A stretch of DNA of 64,000 nucleotides, from positions 40,724,514 through 40,788,513 of the forward strand of contig CM037864.1 of assembly GCA_021292105.1 (NCBI GenBank), given 5' to 3'. The notes under the pieces are model-generated. The model did no database searches, was not told where the DNA came from, and saw nothing but the letters and a program-made list of their open reading frames with translations. Origin of the DNA: Anadara kagoshimensis (taxonomy: Eukaryota; Mollusca; Bivalvia; Arcoida; Arcidae). The position numbers were made by a program, and so were the translations under genes. Positions 8,287 to 52,634 of this stretch are shown one piece after another (within the stretch, counting starts at the first letter, position 1; the number at the start of each line of letters is the position of its first letter).

Positions 8287-8470
8287 TACAGTCCAACCTG
8301 CCTTAAACCACACCTCTATATAAGGGTCACCTGCTAATAAAGGTCAGTAGAATTGTATCCCAATTGTTCTTTATTCATATTATTTGAACCTGTATATAAA
8401 GACCACCTGCCCATATAGGTCACTTTTACTGGTACCCTTGGGTGGATTTTGTAGACAGGTTTGACTGTAT
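8287..8470 (-). mobile_element. MITE family E, copy E2
   Basis: TACAGTCCAACCTGCCTTAA on the left and ACAGGTTTGACTGTA on the right are inverted copies bounded by TA, as expected for a Tc1/mariner-type MITE. The interior repeats TATAAAGACCACCTGC and TTGTTCTTTATTCATATTA of the family. About 184 bp. Confidence 0.85.
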
Positions 8471-8485
8471 AAAGAGGCAGTCAGT

Positions 8486-8560
8486 TCATGGATGGTGAAT
8501 ACTGGAGTGCCTGGAGGAAACTACAAACCTTTAGTAAGCGACATGGTTCGGCAGGTTCTA
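8486..8560 (-). mobile_element. Possible SINE-2 remnant
   Basis: ATGGTGAATACTGGAGTGCCTGGAGGAAACTAC resembles, on the minus strand, the GTTTCCTCC...CACCAT part of the SINE-2 body. Short and diverged. Confidence 0.35.
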
Positions 8561-8666
8561 GTTTGATTGTCAGTTGATTAATCGAAAGTCCATAGTTTCC
8601 TTCAAACTTTTCAAACCAGAATCTGCCAGAGCAGGAATTGAGCCTTAAGAGACCATGAGAGGCACT

Positions 8667-8910
8667 GGCTGATTTCACAATAATTTCTTAACTTAAGATT
8701 TTCCTTAACTTAAATCTGGTAAATTAAAAACCTTTATAATTTTTTTGTTAATTGATAAGATATAAGGAAATTTCAAGTGACATTTTAAAGATTATATCAA
8801 GCTTATGACATCTGCATTTAGTTTTTACAAAAATATTTATTCGTAGTTCCAAAAAGAGCTTGCCAAAATTTGCTAAATTGAAGTTAAGGAATGATTGTGA
8901 AACCGGAGCC
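8667..8910 (+). mobile_element. MITE family B, copy B1
   Basis: Left end GCTGATTTCACAATAATTTC and right end GGAATGATTGTGAAACCGGAGCC are decayed inverted copies. The interior CATCTGCATTTAGTTTTTAC and TCGTAGTTCCAAAAAGAG match copies at 28665 and 60538. No coding capacity. Confidence 0.85.
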
Positions 8911-10312
8911 TGTAATTCTTAAGTGAACTTTAGACCACTTGGCAACTGAGGCTCCAAGCAGACTACTGTGTATTGTTTTCCAGCACAAATAACTGATAAC
9001 TGATAAAGTCCCGCCAAAACACAGATCTTTTTCTATATTATCATATGATTCATAACACAATGTACAAGTTTGTTTATTCTATCATTAGTGTATGTTGTTT
9101 ACAAGCAGAAAAAGTATCAACAGAGTTGTTTATGTTTAAAATGTAACTATACTATATAAACTAGGTCAATATACAAACTGAATACACAAATAACCTAAAT
9201 AACCTAGATTATGATTTATACTGTATGTGAGAAAATATTTTTTTAAGTTGAAAAATTTATGTTTTGAATTAAAAATCTGCATGTACCATTCTACAGATTT
9301 TTAGGTTCTAAATATAAATTATAGGTGTATTAATTACCCCCACTCATCTTAACATCTATATTTTGTATTAAAAATCTGCATGTACCATATATTCTACAGG
9401 TTTTTTACTTTCTGCTTCTTAGTATGTATGTTGTAAACCTCTCCCCACACACACGCCCTATCCTCACAACCTCTCCCCACACACACGCCCTATCCTCACA
9501 AATCATTATGTGACTAATATGCTATGAAAAATTAGTTATTAAGTAAAATAAAGAGTCTTAAATTGAAATAAACATTCTGAATGAGGTACCATTCTGCAAA
9601 CCCCTAGCTTCTCTACATATATTAATTACTAGCTATTAGTATGGATATTAATGACCCCCACCCTCTTAAAATCATAATTATTTAATGAATTAATATACAA
9701 AAATTCATTACAAACCTGAACTTATTGTTTTCTTCCTGGTCCATAATTAACTAATTAACTAACTTCAGTTTTAACTCGATATATAATTAATAACGAAGTA
9801 ACAGGTGTAATGATCCAGTCGTGTGTACTTTCTTAATTTTCGTATTTCTTGCACTCTTGTACTCTTTTCACTGTTACCACTTAAATATAAACCTTCAAAT
9901 CTACACTCCAAACTGATTATTTTGGCTATCAGTGTAATAACTCAGTCTCTGTTCAGTATTTTCTTTTGATATAAGATGAAGTTTTATAGTCTCTCCGATT
10001 TTTTCATCTTTTACCAGATAAAATAATTTTAAGTTTTCCTTTGAATCATAACTATATACACATGTGTCTATTTATCTATTAAGTATAGAGTATATTACTC
10101 TATAAAATTAGTTAGATAATTTGAAAAGTAAACACCAAAGTACTGGACCGACCAACCATGCATACTTCAAGGCTAATATATAACTTTATAACATCTGGAT
10201 ATATAGTACATGGGCCTTTATCTCTCAAAATTATCTAAAATTCTACACAGAGAATCAAAATACATAACAAGATTCTAAGTTCTCAATTGCAATGTTGATA
10301 ATAGTGTATAGA
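8911..10312. other. AT-rich stretch, mostly unrecognised
   Basis: A short phrase ending AAAATCTGCATGTACCAT occurs twice (about 9270 and 9367). The only other clear structure is the duplication listed at 9437. No exon is supported. Confidence 0.45.
9437..9500. repeat. Exact 32-bp tandem duplication
   Basis: Two identical adjacent copies of a unit starting ACCTCTCCCCACACACACG. The identity suggests a recent slippage or copying event. Confidence 0.95.
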
Positions 10313-11267
10313 TATGATGGCCCATATCAGACATATCAGTCTGGTAGTTAAAAGAACATGGGTTTTTGTTTACAAACAACCTCAATGATTGTGTGCAATT
10401 CCATTTGATAAAGCCTTCCTTTTCTTTTACCATGAGGACCATTTAATAAGGGTAAATTTTATTATTTGAGTGTATTTTACCATGAGGATATATTTTATGA
10501 TGTGGGTGTATTTTACCATGAGGATTTCCCATGAAGATGTATTTTACCCCAAAGATGTATTTAACCATAAGGGTGTATTTTACCTTAAGGGTGTATTTTA
10601 CCTTGAGGGTGTATTTCACCTTAAGGGTGTATTTTACCTTGAGGGTGTATTTTACCATAACATTTTACCAATTAAGGGTGTAAATTACCATTAGGGTTTA
10701 TCTTACCATAAGGGTGTATTTGACTTTAAGGGCGTATTTTACCTTAAGGGTGTATTTGACCTTGAGGGCATATTTGACCTTGGGGTGTATTTTACCATGA
10801 TGATGTATTTTATCATTAGAGTGTATTTTACCATTAGGGTGTATTTTGCCTTGAGGGTGTATTTTACCATAAGGTTTTACCAATTAAGGATGTATTTTAC
10901 CATGATGATGTATTTTACCATTGGAGTGTATTTTGCCATAAAGGTGTGCTCTTTACCTGATGATAAAGATGTATTTTACCATTAGGGTGGTTTTTTAACA
11001 TAAGGGTGTTTTTTTTACCATAACGGAGCATTTTGCCATTAGGGTGTATTTTACCATGAGGATGTGTATTACAAGATTGAATTTTACTTTGAGAATGTAT
11101 TTTGTAATGCATTTTTTTATTACATTATTTTCAAATTTGTATTTATAAGTATTGTCATGAAAACAGATGACATTTTATTCAAAAGTTAAGTGTGTAATTT
11201 TGACATTATGATAAATAAATCTGAGATGTTTGTCCTATGTGTGTCAGGGGTGATATGGGCCATCATA
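10313..11267. mobile_element. 955-bp TIR element filled with a minisatellite
   Basis: TATGATGGCCCATATCA (10313-10329) and TGATATGGGCCATCATA (11251-11267) are a perfect 17-bp inverted pair. The outermost dinucleotide on each side is TA, which could be the duplicated TA target of a Tc1/mariner-type element with 15-bp TIRs. The interior carries no transposase and is largely the 18-bp array listed separately. Confidence 0.65.
10444..11100. repeat. Degenerate 18-bp minisatellite
   Basis: About 35 copies of a unit near AAGGGTGTATTTTACCAT, with substitutions and small indels. Because the unit length is a multiple of three, short frames encoding repeats such as KVKYTL appear on both strands. Indels break them, so no gene is called. 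Confidence 0.95.
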
Positions 11268-11720
11268 GCTCTTAAGATATTACATTAACCTTATATGTAC
11301 AAAAAAGACTTTTTAAGTAATGTCTTTTCAAGTATTAATTCATCATTTCCTTAATACTCAAATAATATAGAAACTTCCTGAGTGACTGATTCATGTAATT
11401 GAATTTACTTCAGGCTTTTTGTACTTTAAAATGAAAAAATAGGACATTATATTGATAAAATTTTCCAGATTAAAAAATATTTAAAATGTTTTACAAAAAC
11501 TAAACTAGACCTTTGCATGTTTAAAACAGATTAAAATATTTGATTTCTATATCAAATTCAACATCAAAGTTCTTTTATTTACCATGGCAATTAAGAGTGG
11601 TCATTTTAATTCTTTCTTAAGTTTAAAAGTATAAATACTGAGATAGATCATTAATTTTATACTCTTGACTTCTTTTTAATTTTAATGAATAGAAATGATA
11701 ATGATACTGAGTATGTGAAC
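11268..11720. other. No recognised feature
   Basis: AT-rich sequence. Confidence 0.45.
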
Positions 11721-11724
11721 TGAG

Positions 11725-11756
<32 letters not shown>

Positions 11757-11772
11757 AGAGGAGAGAGAGAGT
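11721..11772. repeat. (GA)n microsatellite
   Basis: Nearly pure GA run with two AA interruptions. Confidence 0.97.
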
Positions 11773-12527
11773 GTTTGTGTTTGTGTCAATATCAGCCATA
11801 ATCTGAGTACATCTTACAATGTGAGGACCCTTCTAATAATTTTACAGTTCAAGATGCAGGATGTCTCTAAATAAATACAGCATGAACAACAATAAGTGGT
11901 TGGTTGAGTTTGTTTAATCAACCTCTGATCAGCTTTTTTAACCAAACACAATTTTGTTACTCCCAACATTCATTTGAATGCAAGTTCGTATTGCACATAA
12001 GTTTTTGCAATCTAAGAATGAAACTCTCTACAGAATAACTTGTTGAGATTATTACACTGAAAGCGCAACTGCTTCTATGTTGAAGACCCCTTCCCCAAAA
12101 GATTTTTGAAGATTACTTAAAATTAGGGGCAAATAGAAGTGACATACATTATTTTCATCATTTAAAACATCTTGCATTAACCCCTTCAGGTAGCACATAT
12201 TCATCAAAAGTTGACCTATTCACATGTTTTTGATCAGCTATGACTTTTTATACATGTGTTTCATTTTAAACTTTGTTTTACAGTACAAGCAAAATGTGCT
12301 TGAATATTTATAAGAGACCTCATTAAGTAGAATATGGTGTCAATTGTCAAAGCGTATATATCCGATGGCTCAAAATTGAACTCTTAGAGAACCCGGATGT
12401 CCGGAACAATCAAACACAACTTTATAGATTCAATTATTCCATCTTAGAGTCATATATCCTTGTCTTTATTTCTACAAAGACATCAGAAATATAAAACCCT
12501 CTTCTTTATATTACTTATATATTACTG
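11773..12527. other. No recognised feature
   Basis: AT-rich sequence without supported repeat or exon. Confidence 0.45.

Positions 12528-12554
<27 letters not shown>
12528..12554. repeat. (TA)n microsatellite
   Basis: Uninterrupted TA run. Confidence 0.97.
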
Positions 12555-12558
<4 letters not shown>

Positions 12559-12600
12559 ATTATAAAGAAGCCAAATTAATTAGATATATGCGAAAATCAG

Positions 12601-12790
12601 CAAAACTTTGATTCATTGCCACAATTTATACAAATCTTGGTGTTATAAAGGAGTTTGGTGATAAATAAATCAAGGGGGGGGGGTTTATCTAGGAAAACAT
12701 AGAATAAATGGATTTTGGGATTTCAAATCACTTTGACGATAAGTGAGGTGAAAAATAATGGAAATGCGTCATAATGAGGTTTTACTATAT
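12601..12790 (-). mobile_element. MITE family C, copy C1
   Basis: AACTTTGATTCATTGCCACA and GGTGTTATAAAGGAGTTTGG on the left, and GACGATAAGTGAGG and CATAATGAGGTTTTACT on the right, align with copies at 32725 and (inverted) 49022. The outer left TIR is eroded. A short G9 run interrupts the interior. Confidence 0.8.
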
Positions 12791-13087
12791 ATTTTTATAA
12801 TTAAAATTTCAAAGGGACAAGGCAAATTTCTGAGAAAGAAAAATAAACTCCCTGATTATTTCCTGGCATTTCCTTAATACCTGAAATTCTTTGACTTTTT
12901 TTTTAAAATTCCTGACAATTTAACTTTGAAAAAATAAAAAAAATCCAAGCTTTTTCCCAGAAACATGGAATCTGGGATGTTCTAAACAACAGGTATTTAT
13001 TATGTGCATGTTTTTTAAGCTTATCAAGTTTTAACTAAAAAGTTCTGATGACAACATCACATTTTCTCCCAACACCACAAATTATCA

Positions 13088-13326
13088 GCATAATAGAAAA
13101 TATGTAGTAGACTTTGGACTTGGATTCGGGACCCTGGTCTTGGACTTAATATGCTATATTTAACATTTATAACATTGTCAATCAATGCCTCTATATCACT
13201 TGTGGATATAATACAATTACAATCAATTTACAAAGCTATTCACTAACTGACATTTGATGATTTGTAAAAATCCAGAATCCAAGTCTAAAGCCCAGTTCAG
13301 AATGCAGTCTAGGTTTTCTATTATGC
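13088..13326. mobile_element. Single-copy MITE-like TIR element
   Basis: GCATAATAGAAAA on the left and TTTTCTATTATGC on the right are exact inverted copies. A second inner pair, TTTGGACTTGGATTC and GAATCCAAGTCTAAA, is also inverted. About 239 bp, no coding frame and no second copy in the window. Confidence 0.6.
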
Positions 13327-13601
13327 CCAAATCAAGTATAAACATTATAAAAATAGTTGATAATTAAATTGGATGCAACATTTAAAAATATTTGCTAGAA
13401 AATTAATGACAAATATGAAATGTAACTAAACTTTACCATGGAATTTCAGTAGGAATCCAGGAGTAATATAATCTTAACAAGTGGCTGAAATTAATATCGC
13501 TATGGCGATTTATAAGTTATAAAGCAATAAGTTAGCATAAAAAAGATAAAAAGCAGATGGATGAAAGTTAGTCTTTCAAAGTTTGATGGCTTGTTAAACA
13601 A
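13327..13601. other. No recognised feature
   Basis: AT-rich sequence. Confidence 0.4.
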
Positions 13602-13785
13602 TACAGTCAAATGTGTCTATAAAGGCCACCAAAGAGAATTAACAAAAGTGGCTTTTATGGGCAGGTGGCCTTTATATAAAGTTAAAATAACATTAATAAA
13701 GAACAATTGGAATACAATTCTACTGCCCTTTATAAGCAGGGGACCCCCTTACATAGAGGTTGCTTTTAAGGCAGGTTGGACTGTA
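13602..13785 (+). mobile_element. MITE family E, copy E3
   Basis: TACAGTCAAATGTGTCTATA on the left and AGGCAGGTTGGACTGTA on the right are inverted. The interior has AAAGAACAATTGGAATACAA and repeated GGCCTTTATA blocks. A 99-codon frame lies over it but is only a shadow of the repeat. Confidence 0.85.
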
Positions 13786-26560: not shown

Positions 26561-28099
26561 CGGAAACTTGTGTCTGAATTACAGCTGAGGAAACTTGTGT
26601 CTGAATTACAGCTGAGGAAACTGGTGTCTGAATTACAGCTGAGGAAACTTGTGTCTGAATTACAGCTGAGGAAACTTGTGTCTGAATTACAGCTGAGGAA
26701 ACTGGTGTCTGAATTACAGCTGAGGAAACTGGTGTCTGAATTACAACTGAGGAAACTGGTGTCTGAATTACAGCTGAGGAAACTGGTGTCTGAATTACAG
26801 CTGAGGAAACTGGTGTCTGAATTACAGCTGAGGAAACTGGTGTCTGAATTACAGCTGAGGAAACTGGTGTCTGAATTACAGCTGAGGAAACTGGTGTCTG
26901 AATTACAGCTGAGGAAACTAGTGTTTGAATTACAACTGAGGAAACTAGTGTCTGAATTACAGCTGAGGAAACTGGTGTCTGAATTACAGCTGAGGAAACT
27001 GGTGTTTGAATTACAACTAAGGAAACTGGTGTCTGAATTACAGCTGAGGAAACTGGTGTCTGAATTACAGCTGAGGAAACTGGTGTCTGAATTACAGCTG
27101 AGGAAACTGGTGTCTGAATTACAACTGAGGAAACTGGTGTCTGAATTACAACTGAGGAAACTGGTGTCTGAATTACAGCTGAGGAAACTGGTGTCTGAAT
27201 TACAACTAAGGAAACTGGTGTCTGAATTACAGCTGAGGAAACTGGTGTCTGAATTACAGCTGAGGAAACTGGTGTCTGAATTACAGCTGAGGAAACTGGT
27301 GTCTGAATTACAACTGAGGAAACTGGTGTCTGAATTACAGCTGAGGAAACTGGTGTTTGAATTACAGCTGAGGAAACTGGTGTCTGAATTACAGCTGAGG
27401 AAACTGGTGTCTGAATTACAGCTGAGGAAACTGGTGTCTGAATTACAGCTGAGGAAACTGGTGTCTGAATTACAACTGAGGAAACTGGTGTCTGAATTAC
27501 AGCTGAGGAAACTGGTGTCTGAATTACAGCTGAGGAAACTGGTGTCTGAATTACAGCTGAGGAAACTGGTGTTTGAATTACAGCTGAGGAAACTGGTGTC
27601 TGAATTACAGCTGAGGAAACTAGTGTTTGAATTACAACTGAGGAAACTAGTGTCTGAATTACAGCTGAGGAAACTGGTGTCTGAATTACAGCTGAGGAAA
27701 CTGGTGTTTGAATTACAACTAAGGAAACTGGTGTCTGAATTACAGCTGAGGAAACTGGTGTCTGAATTACAGCTGAGGAAACTGGTGTCTGAATTACAGC
27801 TGAGGAAACTGGTGTCTGAATTACAGCTGAGGAAACTGGTGTCTGAATTACAACTGAGGAAACTGGTGTCTGAATTACAGCTGAGGAAACTGGTGTCTGA
27901 ATTACAACTAAGGAAACTGGTGTCTGAATTACAGCTGAGGAAACTGGTGTCTGAATTACAGCTGAGGAAACTGGTGTCTGAATTACAGCTGAGGAAACTG
28001 GTGTCTGAATTACAACTGAGGAAACTGGTGTCTGAATTACAGCTGAGGAAACTGGTGTTTGAATTACAGCTGAGGAAACTGGTGTTTGAATTACAACTG
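26561..28099 (+). repeat. 57-copy 27-bp minisatellite encoding (RKLVSELQL)n if translated
   Basis: Exactly 57 uninterrupted 27-bp units starting AGGAAACTGGTGTCTG, with no indel. Only four positions vary through the array, plus CGG for AGG in unit 1. In the plus frame these are CTT/CTG/CTA, CAG/CAA and CTG/CTA (all silent) and TCT/TTT (Ser/Phe). The frame stays open from 26520 to the TAA at 28160, about 545 codons, but holds no ATG. It could be translated only through the possible splice acceptor TTATTATTTACAG ending at 26519. Units 14-30 and 40-56 carry almost the same variant pattern, which shows duplication of a 26-unit (702-bp) block. A non-coding VNTR is the default reading. Confidence 0.95.
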
Positions 28100-28287
28100 A
28101 GTGTGGTAATAACAATGAAGTTGATGACACCTTATGTATTCATAATAAAACTTTTTATATAAATCATTGTTATCTGTTGTAAAAGTAAGGAAAAAAAAAT
28201 AAATATGGCATTGTTGATAATTATAAAGGATTAAAAGTTACAGATGAGGAAAAGAACTGTGATGAATTGTTCAGAAAAACAAAAAAC
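28100..28287. other. No recognised feature
   Basis: AT-rich spacer after the array. The frame from the array runs about 20 codons into it before a TAA. Confidence 0.4.
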
Positions 28288-28664: not shown

Positions 28665-28920
28665 GGCCCCAGTTTCACAATCATTCCTTAACTAAAATTT
28701 TCCTTAATTTGAATCTGGCAAATTTGAAATCTTAATGATTTTAAAAGAATTGTTAAGATATTGGGGAATTTAAGGTGTTGTTTTGAAGATCACTTCAAGT
28801 TTATAACATCTGCATTTAGTTTTCTCAAAAATATGCATCCATAGATCCTACTTATTGCCAATATTTGTGAAATTTAAGTTAAGAAAAATCTTGGTTAAGG
28901 AATGATTGTGAAACTGGGGC
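28665..28920 (+). mobile_element. MITE family B, copy B2
   Basis: GGCCCCAGTTTCACAATCAT (continuing TCCTTAAC) is inverted at the right end as GTTAAGGAATGATTGTGAAA then CTGGGGC. The TIR of about 27 bp is nearly perfect, making it the best-preserved copy of the family. Confidence 0.92.
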
Positions 28921-33693: not shown

Positions 33694-33738
33694 GATATAT
33701 ACGAAAGCCTATTAAGCTCATGAATAAAAAAAATTAAA

Positions 33739-34036
33739 AGGCGTAATAACGCGAATTGAAAGGCGTTATAACGCGAAATAAAGGCGTAATAACGCGAATT
33801 GAAAGGCGTTATAACGCGAAATAAAGGCGTAATAACGCGAATTGAAGAAGTTATAACGCGAAATAAAGGCGTAATAACGCGAATTGAAGAAGTTATAACG
33901 CGAAATAAAGGCGTAATAACGCGAATTGAAAGGCGTTATAACGCGAAATAAAGGCGTTATAATGCCTTTAGAAAGGCGTAGTAACGCGAATCGAAAGGCA
34001 TTATAACGCCTTTAGAAAGGCGTAATAACGCCTTTT
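33739..34036. repeat. Left arm array of GCGTTATAACGC palindromes
   Basis: AAAGGCGTTATAACGCGAAA and AAAGGCGTAATAACGCGAAT alternate with a basic period of about 21-22 bp. GCGTTATAACGC is a perfect palindrome and GCGTAATAACGC a near one, each with CpG at both ends. The inner end (33950-34036) switches to AACGCCTTT between palindromes. Confidence 0.95.
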
Positions 34037-34466
34037 TGTCTATATATAGAGCAGTCACTTGAGAATGTTAACAACCCTCACCACAAACAGATTGGTTTTA
34101 GTTTGAAAAGCTTAAGGCAACTGTAGATCTATTCATACTAAGATATCACAGGTGTCATTTAATCATTGTTAAAAGTTAGCGATTGACAATTGGACAGGAA
34201 CTTTTTAATAAATAGCCATGTGTACATTGCCAATGTTTATCAATGTTTATATTTCAGATTACTTAAAAGATTTTCGTCCCCATATATAAAATGATACTCT
34301 TTATGAAAAAACAACACTTTAACATTAAAAAAAGAAACCTTTCTTTCTGTTTTACTGAAATAGTATGTTCATTTCAGCGCAGGTTAGGATGATGTGCAAA
34401 TTTTTTTTTAATTTTCATAGAATAAATACATATAAAACAGCTTATTAGATTACATATAGTTGTGCA

Positions 34467-34468
<2 letters not shown>

Positions 34469-34504
<36 letters not shown>
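34469..34504. repeat. (AC)n microsatellite in foldback centre
   Basis: About 18 pure AC units, followed 25 nt on by three G5 runs separated by T (34528-34546). Confidence 0.97.
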
Positions 34505-34507
<3 letters not shown>

Positions 34508-34595
34508 TTTAATATGTATGTAAAGTGTGGGGGTGGGGGTGGGGGTAGAGATTAAACCCCAGGACCTCCACATCATTATGGAAGGCACCTTAACT

Positions 34596-34829
34596 TCGCG
34601 TTATAACGCCTTTCAATTCGCGTTATTACGCCTTTCTAAAGGCGTTATAACGCCTTTATTTCGCGTTATAACGCCTTTCAATTCGCGTTATTACGCCTTT
34701 ATTTCGCTTTATAACGCCTATTAATTCGCGTTATAACGCCTTTCAATTCGCGTTATTACGCCTTTATTTCGCGTTATTACGCCTTTTTTCGCATTATAAC
34801 GCCTTTATTTCGCGTTATTACGCCTTTTA
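34596..34829. repeat. Right arm array of GCGTTATAACGC palindromes
   Basis: The inverted counterpart of the left arm, with units such as TTCGCGTTATAACGCCTTTC and TTCGCGTTATTACGCCTTT. It is shorter than the left array (about 234 against 298 bp), so the arms differ in unit number. Confidence 0.95.
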
Positions 34830-34871
34830 ATTTTTTTTTATTTATGAGCTTAATAGGCTTTCGTAGATATA

Positions 34872-36402: not shown

Positions 36403-36633
36403 CAGGCAAACAACAATGATTCCTCCATGTGACCTTTCACTAGAAATATTCATATAGGTTGATCCACCCTATACATGGGTAGTGTTAGGATTCACAAGTA
36501 ATACAACAAAGTGCATGTTTACCATGTTGATGAGAAAATAAACACCTGTGATCCCTATATATTAATGCACTAGACCATGATAATAAATATTCAAATTAAA
36601 GGTCAAGCGGACAGGTCAAAGTTGTTTGCCTAT
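36403..36633 (+). mobile_element. MITE family A, copy A3
   Basis: CAGGCAAACAACAATGATTC on the left and GACAGGTCAAAGTTGTTTGC on the right are inverted. The interior ATCCACCCTATACATGGGTA and AGTGTTAGGATTCACA is as in A1. The left TIR has decayed at the TGACCTGT block. Confidence 0.88.
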
Positions 36634-36939
36634 ATCAAAGCTATACAGAATATATTGATATTGACATTAACAACATCAGATAATTGTCAATCAGCATGAG
36701 GATTTCCCTAAAGGTATGTGAAGCAGATAATTCTTTTTAAAAGTGCAAACATATCCAGACTTCCCTAAAGGTTTAACAACTTCTAATAGATGTGGAATTC
36801 CTCTAGGTGCAAAAAAATGCAGACTCTCATTAGTGACACTATAAAACTGCGGACTGATTTTTTGATATAACATTATGCATGTCATGATGCCTTTAAGGAC
36901 ATTTTAATGGAAAATCTGTCTGGTGTAATGTTAAGAGTA

Positions 36940-37095
36940 CAGTAAAGTAAAGTAATGGTGTTTTATATACCACTCAATATTTTTTTCATATTTACAGAAG
37001 CAGCATATCCTGGGACAGTGGAAGAAACAGAAGTACTCCAAGAAAGCCACCCATCTTGACAGGTAGATCACTTATTCTTCACAAGTAGAAAATTT
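36940..37095 (-). mobile_element. SINE-2 3' body (minus strand), diverged
   Basis: AAGTAATGGTGTTTTATATA, CCACTCAATATTTTTTTCAT and GGGACAGTGGAAGAAACAG then AGTACTCCAAGAAAGCCAC follow the family order inverted. Confidence 0.65.
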
Positions 37096-37678
37096 GGCGT
37101 CAAGACCATCTTGGCCTTATTCGCGAATATTTGAATTTGTGTTTGGAATCTTACCGAATACAACATATGTATGTCAACATAAAAATATCTGTGTGCTGGA
37201 AATATCTGCATGATATTTGAATTTGTGAATGGGGTGAGTTGCTAATTTATGCGAAAATAAATCTCTCGAGAAATAAAAGTGATCTACAGTATATACCGAC
37301 AAACTTTGGCCAACTAGGATCTGCCTGAGGGATCGAAATTCAAACTAAGGTGGTTAAAGCTCATGTTATCATTAAGCTAGCACTTTAAAGATCAAAATGC
37401 TGTTTTTCATATGCAAATTTGTTACGTAGAAAGTGTAAAATTATCAAATTTTTTAAAGACTTCAAGAGATGGACAAAAATCTGCAATATAACTATCATTT
37501 TTCAGTACAAGAGCTTAAATCATGTCACACACTCTATCAATGTGTAAGTTTTTGGTAAGCAATGTTAAGGTTTTGGTCAAATATTTGTGCACAGAGACCA
37601 CCTTCGCTATTCTTATGACAGCTCTTGTTATTGTTTCTGGTAAATTGACATTTATCTTGTATATGACAGTATAGATAA
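37096..37678. other. Mostly unrecognised; partial repeat at 37110-37300
   Basis: Read on the minus strand, TACTGTAGATCACTTTTATT and GAGATTTATTTTCGCATAAA recall the repeat at 59885-60085 (TACTGTAGATTGGGAAATTT). The pairing is loose. Confidence 0.4.
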
Positions 37679-37929
37679 CAGGCAAACAACTTTGACCTGT
37701 CCGCTTGACCTTTCATTTAAATATTTATTGCGGACCAAGTACATCTATGTATAGAGAACACAAGTGTTTGCTTTGTATACATTATAAGATATACTCACCT
37801 CATAGAGTAAACCTGTGCACCGTGTATGCATTAACTTGGATCTTAACACTACCCATTTATTGGGTGGACCCTCCTATATGAATATTCCTAATGAAAGGTT
37901 AAGCAGACAGGTCAAAGTTGTTTACCTAT
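37679..37929 (-). mobile_element. MITE family A, copy A4
   Basis: CAGGCAAACAACTTTGACCT then GTCCGCTTGACCTTTCATTT on the left is inverted on the right as AGACAGGTCAAAGTTGTTTA then CCTAT. The interior ACACTACCCATTTATTGGGT lies at the right, giving the orientation. About 251 bp, with the clearest long TIR of the family. Confidence 0.9.
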
Positions 37930-46670: not shown

Positions 46671-48387
46671 CAAGAGGCCCATGGGCCTTAACGCTCACCT
46701 GAGGACGAGTACATATCTTATGCAGAGGTTCAATGGTCAATGACATTAATAAAAGAGAATATCAAAATTTTCAGCAGTAAGGGCCAATAATATGCAAGTA
46801 TTTTTGCAAATTAATTATAATAATTATTATATAAGGATGCTATATATAACATTAAAAGTCTAGCTAAATATTATTTATAAACAGCTAAAACATCTGTATA
46901 TTAAAATGTGCATTAAGCCAATACCTACAATATTCCATATACAAGAGTTTATAGTTTTTGAGATAATTAACCATTTAAGTATTCGTTAGCATCTATGACC
47001 TTGATCTTTGAACCTATGACCTTCATTCATATATCAAAATGATTGTTGTGCAAATGCCTACAATATTCCAATATACATGCCTATACAAAAAGTTTATAGT
47101 TTTTGAGAAAATTAACCATTTAAGTATTCATTTGCATCTATGACCTTGACCTTTGTACCTATGACCTTCATTCATATATCAAAATGATCGTTAGGCCAAT
47201 ACCTACAATATTCCAATATACATGCCTATACAAAAAGTTAATAGTTTTTGAGATAATTAACCATTTAAGTATTCATTTGCATCTATGACCTTGACCTTTG
47301 AACCTATGACCTTCATTCATATATCAAATTGATCATTAGGCCAATACCTACAATATTCCAATATACATGCCTATACAAAAAGTTTATAGTTTTTGAGATA
47401 ATTAACCATTTAAGTATTTGTTCGCATCTTTGACCTTGACCTTTGAACCTATGACCTTTATTCATATATCAAAATGATCGTTGGGCCAATACCTACAATA
47501 TTCCAATATACATGCCTATACAAAAGTTTATAGTTTTTGAGATAATTAACCATTTCAGTACTTGTTTACATCTGTGACCTTGACCTTTGAACCCATGACC
47601 TTTATTCATATATCAAAATGACCATTGTGCCATTACCTACAATATTCTGATATACATGCCTATACAAAAAATTCATAGTTTTGCAGATAATTAACTATTT
47701 TGGTATTCTTGGACATCTGTGACCTTGACCTTTGAACCCATGACCCTGATCTATGTATCAAAATGATCGTCATGTCAATACCTACAAGTAACTGAAAATC
47801 CTATGCCATTATCACAAGAAATGTTAAAAAAATAAGCATTTTTTATCAAAGGTCAAAAACTGGGACATGACCTTGACCTTCGACCTTGACATCAATTGGA
47901 AGAAAATTGCAAGACAAGATCAACAGTGAAAACTCCATACAATTATCTTCAGCCGTTATGAAGTTATAACAATAAATGTCTCATTTTAAAAATTACATAA
48001 TTTTACGCAAAAAACGCGTAACCCATTTTTCGTCTAATTTTCATGAAAAACACAATTTTAATGTTCCCAGGTATGCTGAATCCAAATATCCAATCAAAAT
48101 TTGCCTGCACCTTTTGGTTTCAGAGAAGAAGATTTTTTTGTCTTTTTGCTATTTTTAGTAACAGCTGCTATCTTGTTGGGCGTGGCCAAACCCCGAACAC
48201 AATTTTGAAAGGCTGTTACCTAGGCATGATAACCACCAAGTTTCATCAAATATGGCCCAGTAGTTTTGGAGGAGAAGATTAAAATGTAAAGTTTACACAC
48301 GACACACGACGCACGACGGACGACGGACGACGGACGGTGATAGATTGCAATAGCTCATCTGAGCTTTTTGCTCAGGTGAGCTAAAAA
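46671..48387 (+). mobile_element. Composite element HINE-like 1
   Basis: Starts CAAGAGGCCCATGGGCC (with the perfect palindrome GGCCCATGGGCC), then CGCTCACCTGAG. A core array of 145-bp units follows (listed separately), then a unique part with AAAACGCGTAACCCATTTTT, a GACGGACGACGGACGACGG run and a terminal hairpin. The hairpin arms are AGCTCATCTGAGC and GCTCAGGTGAGCT around TTTTT, followed by CTAA. Subterminal inverted motif, tandem core, microsatellite and 3' hairpin are the layout of Helentron-associated non-autonomous elements (pearl and DINE-1 types). No protein is encoded. Confidence 0.85.
46880..47790 (+). repeat. 145-bp tandem core of composite element 1, about 6 copies
   Basis: GACCTTGACCTTTGAAC recurs at 46997 (variant), 47142, 47287, 47432, 47576 and 47721, giving a near-constant 145-bp period. 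Each unit also holds ATTCATATATCAAAATGATC, ACCTACAATATTCCAATATA and AGTTTTTGAGATAATTAACC. Each carries three TGACCT half-sites. Confidence 0.95.
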
Positions 48388-50944: not shown

Positions 50945-52634
50945 CAAGAGGCCCATGGGCCTTATACGCTCACCTGATAACTAATGGCTAGCTGATAGAT
51001 TTAAAGTAAACGTAAATACTAAACCCCAATGACTTTTTTCTTGAATACAAAATGATCATTGTATCAATACCTACAACATTCTAATATACATGCCTATACA
51101 AAAAGTTTATAGTTTTCGAGATAATTAACCATTTCGGTATTGTTTTCACATCTGTGACCTTGACCTTTGAACCCATGACCTTTTTCTATACATCAAAATG
51201 ATGGTTGTATCAATACCTACAACATTCTAATACACATGTCTATACAAAAAGTTTATAGTTTTCAAGATAATTAACCATTTCAATATTGTTTTGCATCTGT
51301 GACCTTGACCTTTGAACCCATGACCTTTTTCTATACATCAAAATGATCGTTGTATCAATACCTACAACATTATAATATACATGCCTATACAAAAAGTTTA
51401 TAGTTTTCGAGATAATTAACCATTTCAGTATTGATTCGCATCTGTGACCTTGACCTTTGAACCCATGACCGTTTACTATACATCAAAACGATTGTTGTAT
51501 CAATACCTACAACATTCTAATATAAATGCCTATACAAAAAGTTTATAGTTGTCGAGATAATTAACCATTTTGGTATTGTTTCGCATCTGTGACCTTGACC
51601 TTTGAACCCATGACCTTTTTCTATACATCAAAATAATCGTTGTATCAATATCTACAACATTCCAATATACATGCCTATACAAAAAGTTTATAGTTTTCGA
51701 GATAATTAACGATTTCGGTGTTGTTTCGCATCTGTGACCTTGACCTTTGAACCCATGACCTTTTTCTATACATCAAAATGATCGTTGTATCAATACCTAC
51801 AACATTCTAATATACATGCCTATACAAAAAGTTTATAGTTTTCGAGATAATTAACCATTTTGGTATTGTTTCGCATCTGTGACCTTGACCTTTGAAACCC
51901 ATGACCTTTTTCTATACATCAAAATGATCGTTGTATCAATACCTACAACATTCTAATATACATGACTATACAAAAAGTTTATAGTTTTCAAGATAATTAA
52001 CCATTTCAATATTGTTTTGCATCTGTGACCTTGACCTTTGAACCCATGACCTTTTTCTATACATCAAAATGATCGTTGCATCAATACCTACAACATTCTA
52101 ATATACATGACTATACAAAAAGTTTATAGTTTTCGAGATAATAATTATAATCAGAGGTAAAAAAAATTAGGTCACGACCTTCACAATTGACCTTGACCTC
52201 ATTTTGAAGATACTAACTAGAAGATGTCAAAACTGAAAACCCCATGTCATTATCTGGTCAAGTAGTCAAGTTATAACAATTTGAAGCTATTTTACGATTT
52301 TTTCAAAATTAAATGCAAAAACGCGTAACCCATTTTTCGACCGAATTTCACAAAATGAACAAACTAAAGGCTTAAGACCCTAGAGAAGCCAAATATCTCA
52401 TCAGATTTTTTCTCCAAACAATACTTTCGGAGAAGAAGATTTTTTAAGATTTTTGCACCCCTAGGTCACCTTGACCTAGTTATGGTAGCCATGGCAACGC
52501 CACGAACAAATCTGAATTGCACCGACCCAGACATGCTTCTGACCAAGTCTCATTGAAATCTGCCAAGTACTTTCAGAGGAGAAGTCGAAAATGTGAAAAG
52601 TTTACGACGACAACGACGACGACAGACAACGGAC

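Follow-up and report, generated by a model that had tools for sequence, protein, structure and literature searches.

A multi-copy foldback element with arm arrays of near-palindromic sites in the genome of Anadara kagoshimensis

Structure and boundaries of the element

The 64,000-nt stretch of DNA analyzed here (the window) contains an element of 1166 bp at 33700..34865, not assigned to a strand, with ends TACGAAAG..CTTTCGTA and boundaries that are matched by other copies in the source genome. At longer length, the inverted termini read TACGAAAGCC...GGCTTTCGTA; they are of the form TA..TA and open with TACGA. The left outer terminal segment, TACGAAAGCCTATTAAGCTCATGAATAAAAAAAATTAAAAG (33700..33740, plus strand), lies outside the repeat array and is followed by the left arm array (33741..34031, plus strand), a middle segment (34032..34597, no strand assigned), the right arm array (34598..34823, minus strand), and the right outer terminal segment (34824..34865, minus strand), which is the left one inverted. 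These array coordinates correct the arm lengths of about 300 and 234 bp given in the first-pass annotation. Its statement that the inverted outer ends are nearly identical over 55 bp was borne out, a single substitution and a single 1-base indel being all that separates them.

The same annotation had placed a GATATA on both sides of the element, and these two copies of a 6-bp target duplication directly abut its ends (33694..33699 and 34866..34871, unstranded); the complete 6-bp duplication was read at a single insertion, the window copy. A shared 6-mer at the element's spacing occurs in 33 of 62,822 window position pairs (0.05%) and in 0.12% of random local pairs. The boundary could also be read with TA as a 2-bp duplication and CGAAAG..CTTTCG as the ends, but the match between the outside GATATA sequences would then be coincidental.

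We scanned the window for 14-base inverted ends with a 6-bp flanking repeat, removing low-complexity ends before counting. The scan returned eight matches, namely the element, six matches within its arms, and one at 8399-13672. Ten Markov controls under the same filter gave no match in nine cases and one match in the tenth. The 8399-13672 candidate has a low-complexity duplication, TATATA, and is enclosed by a pair of inverted arms at 8305-8389 and 13681-13765 (85 bp, 81% complementary, 5.3 kb apart).

The element at 33700..34865 has a middle segment between long, inverted, tandemly repetitive arms, the architecture by which foldback elements are recognized. When its full length is folded as single-stranded DNA, the predicted structure pairs the arms, at -336.9 kcal/mol (a value unshuffled at that length). 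The left arm alone is predicted to fold at -73.8, largely into small hairpins, with a z of -9.66 and none of 100 shuffles as good. It is by prediction, then, that one strand pairs arm to arm as a foldback does.

The longest stop-free stretch of the middle segment is 50 aa in six frames, and the segment carries an (AC)18 run at 34469-34504. No stop-free stretch in the whole element exceeds 81 aa, and the window copy holds no frame of transposase length. Beside the right arm, still within the middle segment, 34529-34597 contains three GGGGGT repeats and a stretch whose minus strand resembles a decayed tRNA-type T-arm. ARAGORN found no tRNA in the window, and Rfam gave no match at the gathering score in the window as it stands, a search by which a gene split by an insertion could be missed.

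The window holds several other repeats. A 27-bp unit is repeated in tandem at 26562-28101 (57 copies, 96% matches), with an open frame on each strand. Arrays of 145-bp units at 46938-47787 and 51029-52142, about 3 kb from each other, have similar consensus sequences, and a short inverted-repeat element at 28666-28920 has 58 bp arms, 86% complementary and 139 bp apart. The stretch 36404-37927 is perhaps another inverted-repeat element, in which about 1 kb is surrounded by inverted arms in two pairs, one nested in the other (91 nt, 77% and 50 nt, 96% complementarity).

Related copies in the source genome

We searched the source genome (1,115,223,567 bases in 36 contigs), which yielded 1045 first-look candidates, and scored the best 40. 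These 40 best-scored places of the 1.115 Gb gave at least 198 matching pieces, many of which are arm-to-arm cross matches inside single copies. Because only the best 40 were scored, the number of copies can be given only as a minimum, and the places scored are the best matches and not a random sample. The first 40 matches listed, including the window's own, are distributed over 16 contigs.

At the 39 other scored places, the best match has 86-96% identity (median 91). Of these 39 matches, 19 begin at one predicted end (query 6 or 7) and 12 finish at the other (1172 or 1173); we put best matches that stop elsewhere down mostly to arm arrays of differing length. We grouped the 138 matches listed into 40 clusters, counting an edge as terminal when it fell within 8 bases of the terminus of either arm. 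Both outer edges were at predicted termini in 33/40 clusters, the window's own included, and one edge was off the terminus in the other 7/40. The two-ended clusters are 1053-1481 bp long, plus one composite of 2436 bp. The absence of any other genomic copy with the same ends had been set beforehand as a refuting result; such copies were found, to the extent of the two-ended clusters other than the window's own. The element is one copy of a multi-copy transposon family without a gene of its own. Its description as a foldback transposon is supported: its inverted arms are long and built of tandem repeats, a 6-bp repeat flanks it, and copies with its ends recur in the source genome.

At G000:C8:9101947-9104382, one family copy appears to be inserted in another, which offers a natural counterpart of an empty site. 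The outer copy is split into query 1172-490 and 494-8 (83% and 77% identity), with 1190 bases between the two pieces, and the inner stretch has termini at both edges. As query 490-494 is present on both sides of the inner copy, about 5 bases were duplicated, a figure derived from alignment coordinates whose edges may shift by a base or two. Base 9102644, which separates the lower-coordinate piece of the outer copy from the terminus of the inner one, was aligned to query 1173 (G). The outer copy would need query 489 at this base, where the window copy has A, so that the duplication comes to 5 bp, with a sixth to be added should the outer copy have carried a different letter here. For the other refuting result set beforehand, further copies lacking a 6-bp duplication, this nested pair supplies the one observation, 5-6 bp.

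Near-palindromic cores and CpG content of the arms

The left arm array comprises 14 cores of the GCGTTATAACGC / GCGTAATAACGC type at a spacing of 21-22 bp (mean 21.5). The 11 cores of the right arm array are colinear with these in inverted orientation and are spaced at 20-22 bp (mean 21.4). Each of the 25 cores is 12 bp long. The window contains GCGTTATAACGC, with up to 2 mismatches, 26 times where 0.54 is expected, and 25 of these matches fall within the arms. The first-pass annotation had described every unit as a palindrome, which holds for the 7/25 cores that are perfect palindromes (GCGTTATAACGC) and is too strong for the rest; another 11/25 have one mismatched pair (GCGTAATAACGC or its reverse complement), and 7/25 carry other mutations. 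Likewise, the alternation of units that it reported is strict only toward the outer end of the left arm. Tandem Repeats Finder gave its top scores to a 43-bp dimer for the left arm and to a 65-bp trimer for the right.

Aligned to each other in inverted, colinear order, the arms show 13 mismatches in about 270 aligned bases, with small indels and two gaps of 23 and 20 bases, each about one unit. The left arm has one extra unit on its inner side, and its AAGTTATAACGC variant is present twice, 42 bp apart. The earlier proposal that the arms have gained or lost units is supported by the one-unit gaps, the repeated AAGTTATAACGC variant, and the range of cluster lengths. When the unit order of the right arm was shuffled, 9/500 trials reached the observed alignment score, which supports a shared unit order without being overwhelming.

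The first reading had also remarked on the CpG contrast between the arms and their surroundings, and the counts agree. The observed/expected CpG ratio is 3.4 and 3.8 in the arms (36 CpGs in 292 bp and 30 in 233 bp) versus 0.38 in the window (636 in 64 kb), and it is 0.26 in the middle segment. Within the cores, 44/50 CpGs are kept; the six losses are three transitions and three C-to-A changes, two of the latter, in variants 42 bp apart, probably being one event that was duplicated. These counts give no sign of strong methylation decay in the cores, and they do not separate youth, homogenization, and lack of methylation. The methylation target that the first reading suggested as one possible role would thus be a site whose CpGs are mostly intact.

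We also looked for the arm and end sequences elsewhere. The 20-base end and the two-unit array pattern had no matches in viral contigs. The core pattern occurred in 12 stretches of bacterial genome contigs, with a single match in each, and we took these for chance. As judged by titles and the starts of abstracts, no transposon paper was found for GCGTTATAACGC or for shorter or overlapping strings, and a search for literature combining palindrome, foldback, and CpG returned none.

Superfamily assignment

TA..TA termini are reported for every complete IS3EU family, usually together with 6-bp duplications, while GingerRoot elements have 6-bp duplications and mostly TA..TA ends (PMC10045372). The window copy resembles both in its TA..TA termini and 6-bp duplication, and differs in having no transposase. 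Against the duplication size of these superfamilies, we observe 6 bp at the window copy, with 5-6 bp implied at the one nested copy. TET-bearing IS3EU elements of rust fungi are described with terminal inverted repeats of more than 30 bp, TAYGG..CCRTA ends, and a 6-bp duplication (PMC12730594); the element here shares TACG at the end and the 6 bp, but opens TACGA where the fungal ends have TACGG or TATGG. Two oyster satellites are annotated as DNA/IS3EU (PMC8268682). From its TA..TA ends and 6-bp duplication, we file the element as a foldback in architecture and probably IS3EU/GingerRoot by end signature; it is not filed as a proven member because no transposase was seen. Under the spelling 'foldback', the portions of the literature available make no mention of such arms for IS3EU/GingerRoot, and the word co-occurs in a reference title only.

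The described foldbacks that we compared share features of the arms. Tetris of Drosophila virilis is also non-autonomous, with tandem-repeat arms, a variable middle, and no known autonomous partner, but has 8-10 bp duplications, arm repeats of the TIR-220 type, and a suggested Mutator affiliation (PMC4079207). Galileo, a foldback-like member of the P superfamily, has internally repetitive arms of variable length; it differs in its 7-bp duplications, repeats of about 210 bp, known transposase, and longer arms (about 890-1260 bp in F-group copies) (PMC3573991). Tm1, a Mutator/foldback element of root-knot nematodes, has composite arms with a tandem motif and copy-number variation, and differs in that its duplications are commonly 9 bp and transposase-bearing relatives are known (PMC3169594).

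Such likenesses would allow the element to be a foldback of the Mutator or P superfamily with a short duplication, as most described foldbacks belong there, which we regard as unlikely. Tandem repeats in the arms are common to Tetris, Tm1, and Galileo, the majority of foldbacks, though not all, apparently belong to Mutator (PMC4079207), and the 4-10 bp given for MuDR/IS256 duplications (PMC10045372) includes 6 bp. However, the 6 bp observed here and the 5-6 bp of the nested pair fall short of the 7-10 bp reported for Tetris, Tm1, and Galileo, and the TA..TA ends fit IS3EU/GingerRoot.

We consider it quite improbable that the element arose by deletion from a Polinton/Maverick or from a different lineage with 6-bp duplications, such as Dada or hAT6. 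Polinton ends are of the AG..CT type. Duplication size alone would suit these lineages, being 6 bp in Polintons (PMC10045372), 6-7 bp in Dada (PMC3706591), and 6 bp in hAT6 (PMC12730594). Yet Dada-U6 and Dada-U1 reportedly have no terminal inverted repeats, whereas the window element has inverted ends, and Dada targets small-RNA genes, whereas the window has no tRNA or Rfam match (PMC3706591). Both observations speak against membership in Dada, the second with the reservation that a gene split by the insertion could be missed.

Our favored reading, which we hold to be somewhat probable, is that of a non-autonomous foldback mobilized by an IS3EU/GingerRoot-type transposase with a 6-bp stagger, in which the arrays are sites for a dimeric protein and change by unit gain or loss. 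A transposase, most likely an IS3EU/GingerRoot one, would be supplied in trans by a different element, cutting at the TA..TA ends and inserting with the 6-bp stagger. Against this reading, neither a transposase gene nor an autonomous relative was seen. The near-palindrome arrays would offer many binding sites to a symmetric (dimeric) protein, most likely the transposase or a partner, and arm length would shift as units are gained or lost.

Possible roles of the arm arrays

B-DNA has 10.5 bp per turn. The mean spacings of 21.5 and 21.4 bp are close to two such turns, so that successive cores would face almost the same side of the DNA. Galileo is the closest precedent for arm repeats as secondary transposase sites, since its repeats reportedly hold secondary transposase binding sites (PMC3573991). 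By this analogy and from the spacing, a putative binding-site role for the arrays is plausible.

A near-palindrome array may also result simply from repeat slippage. It is possible, though on balance we doubt it, that the arrays are without function. In that case slippage, together with exchange between the arms, would have amplified a fortuitous palindrome, and the outer ~40 bp would suffice for movement. The unequal unit numbers (14 versus 11), the variable cluster lengths, and an arm colinearity that exceeds chance only moderately in the unit-order shuffles would all agree with this. On the other hand, most CpGs of the cores have survived although the region is poor in CpG, the units keep a spacing of 20-22 bp, and the scored copies match across the arrays, observations that count against a lack of role and are each compatible with young age as well.

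It is very unlikely, in our view, that the arrays are a promoter or chromatin module in which CpG-dense sites stand beside the TATA-like stretch at 34041-34048. The arms are indeed CpG-dense and TATATATA lies immediately inside the left arm, but TATATATA has 41 start positions across the window, and the middle segment has no stop-free stretch above 50 aa.

We also offer, as speculation, a bolder hypothesis that we regard as unlikely. An IS3EU-type lineage might independently have become foldback, with helically phased, CpG-flanked 12-bp near-palindromes setting transposition through the binding of a symmetric protein and perhaps through CpG methylation of half-sites.

Significance

The foldbacks compared here, Tetris, Galileo, and Tm1, belong or have been assigned to Mutator or P. 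If the assignment proposed for the present element is true, its IS3EU-type ends would mean that arm arrays have evolved convergently in an integrase-like lineage as well. With its many copies of varied length, the family could show whether the number of sites affects the success of a copy.
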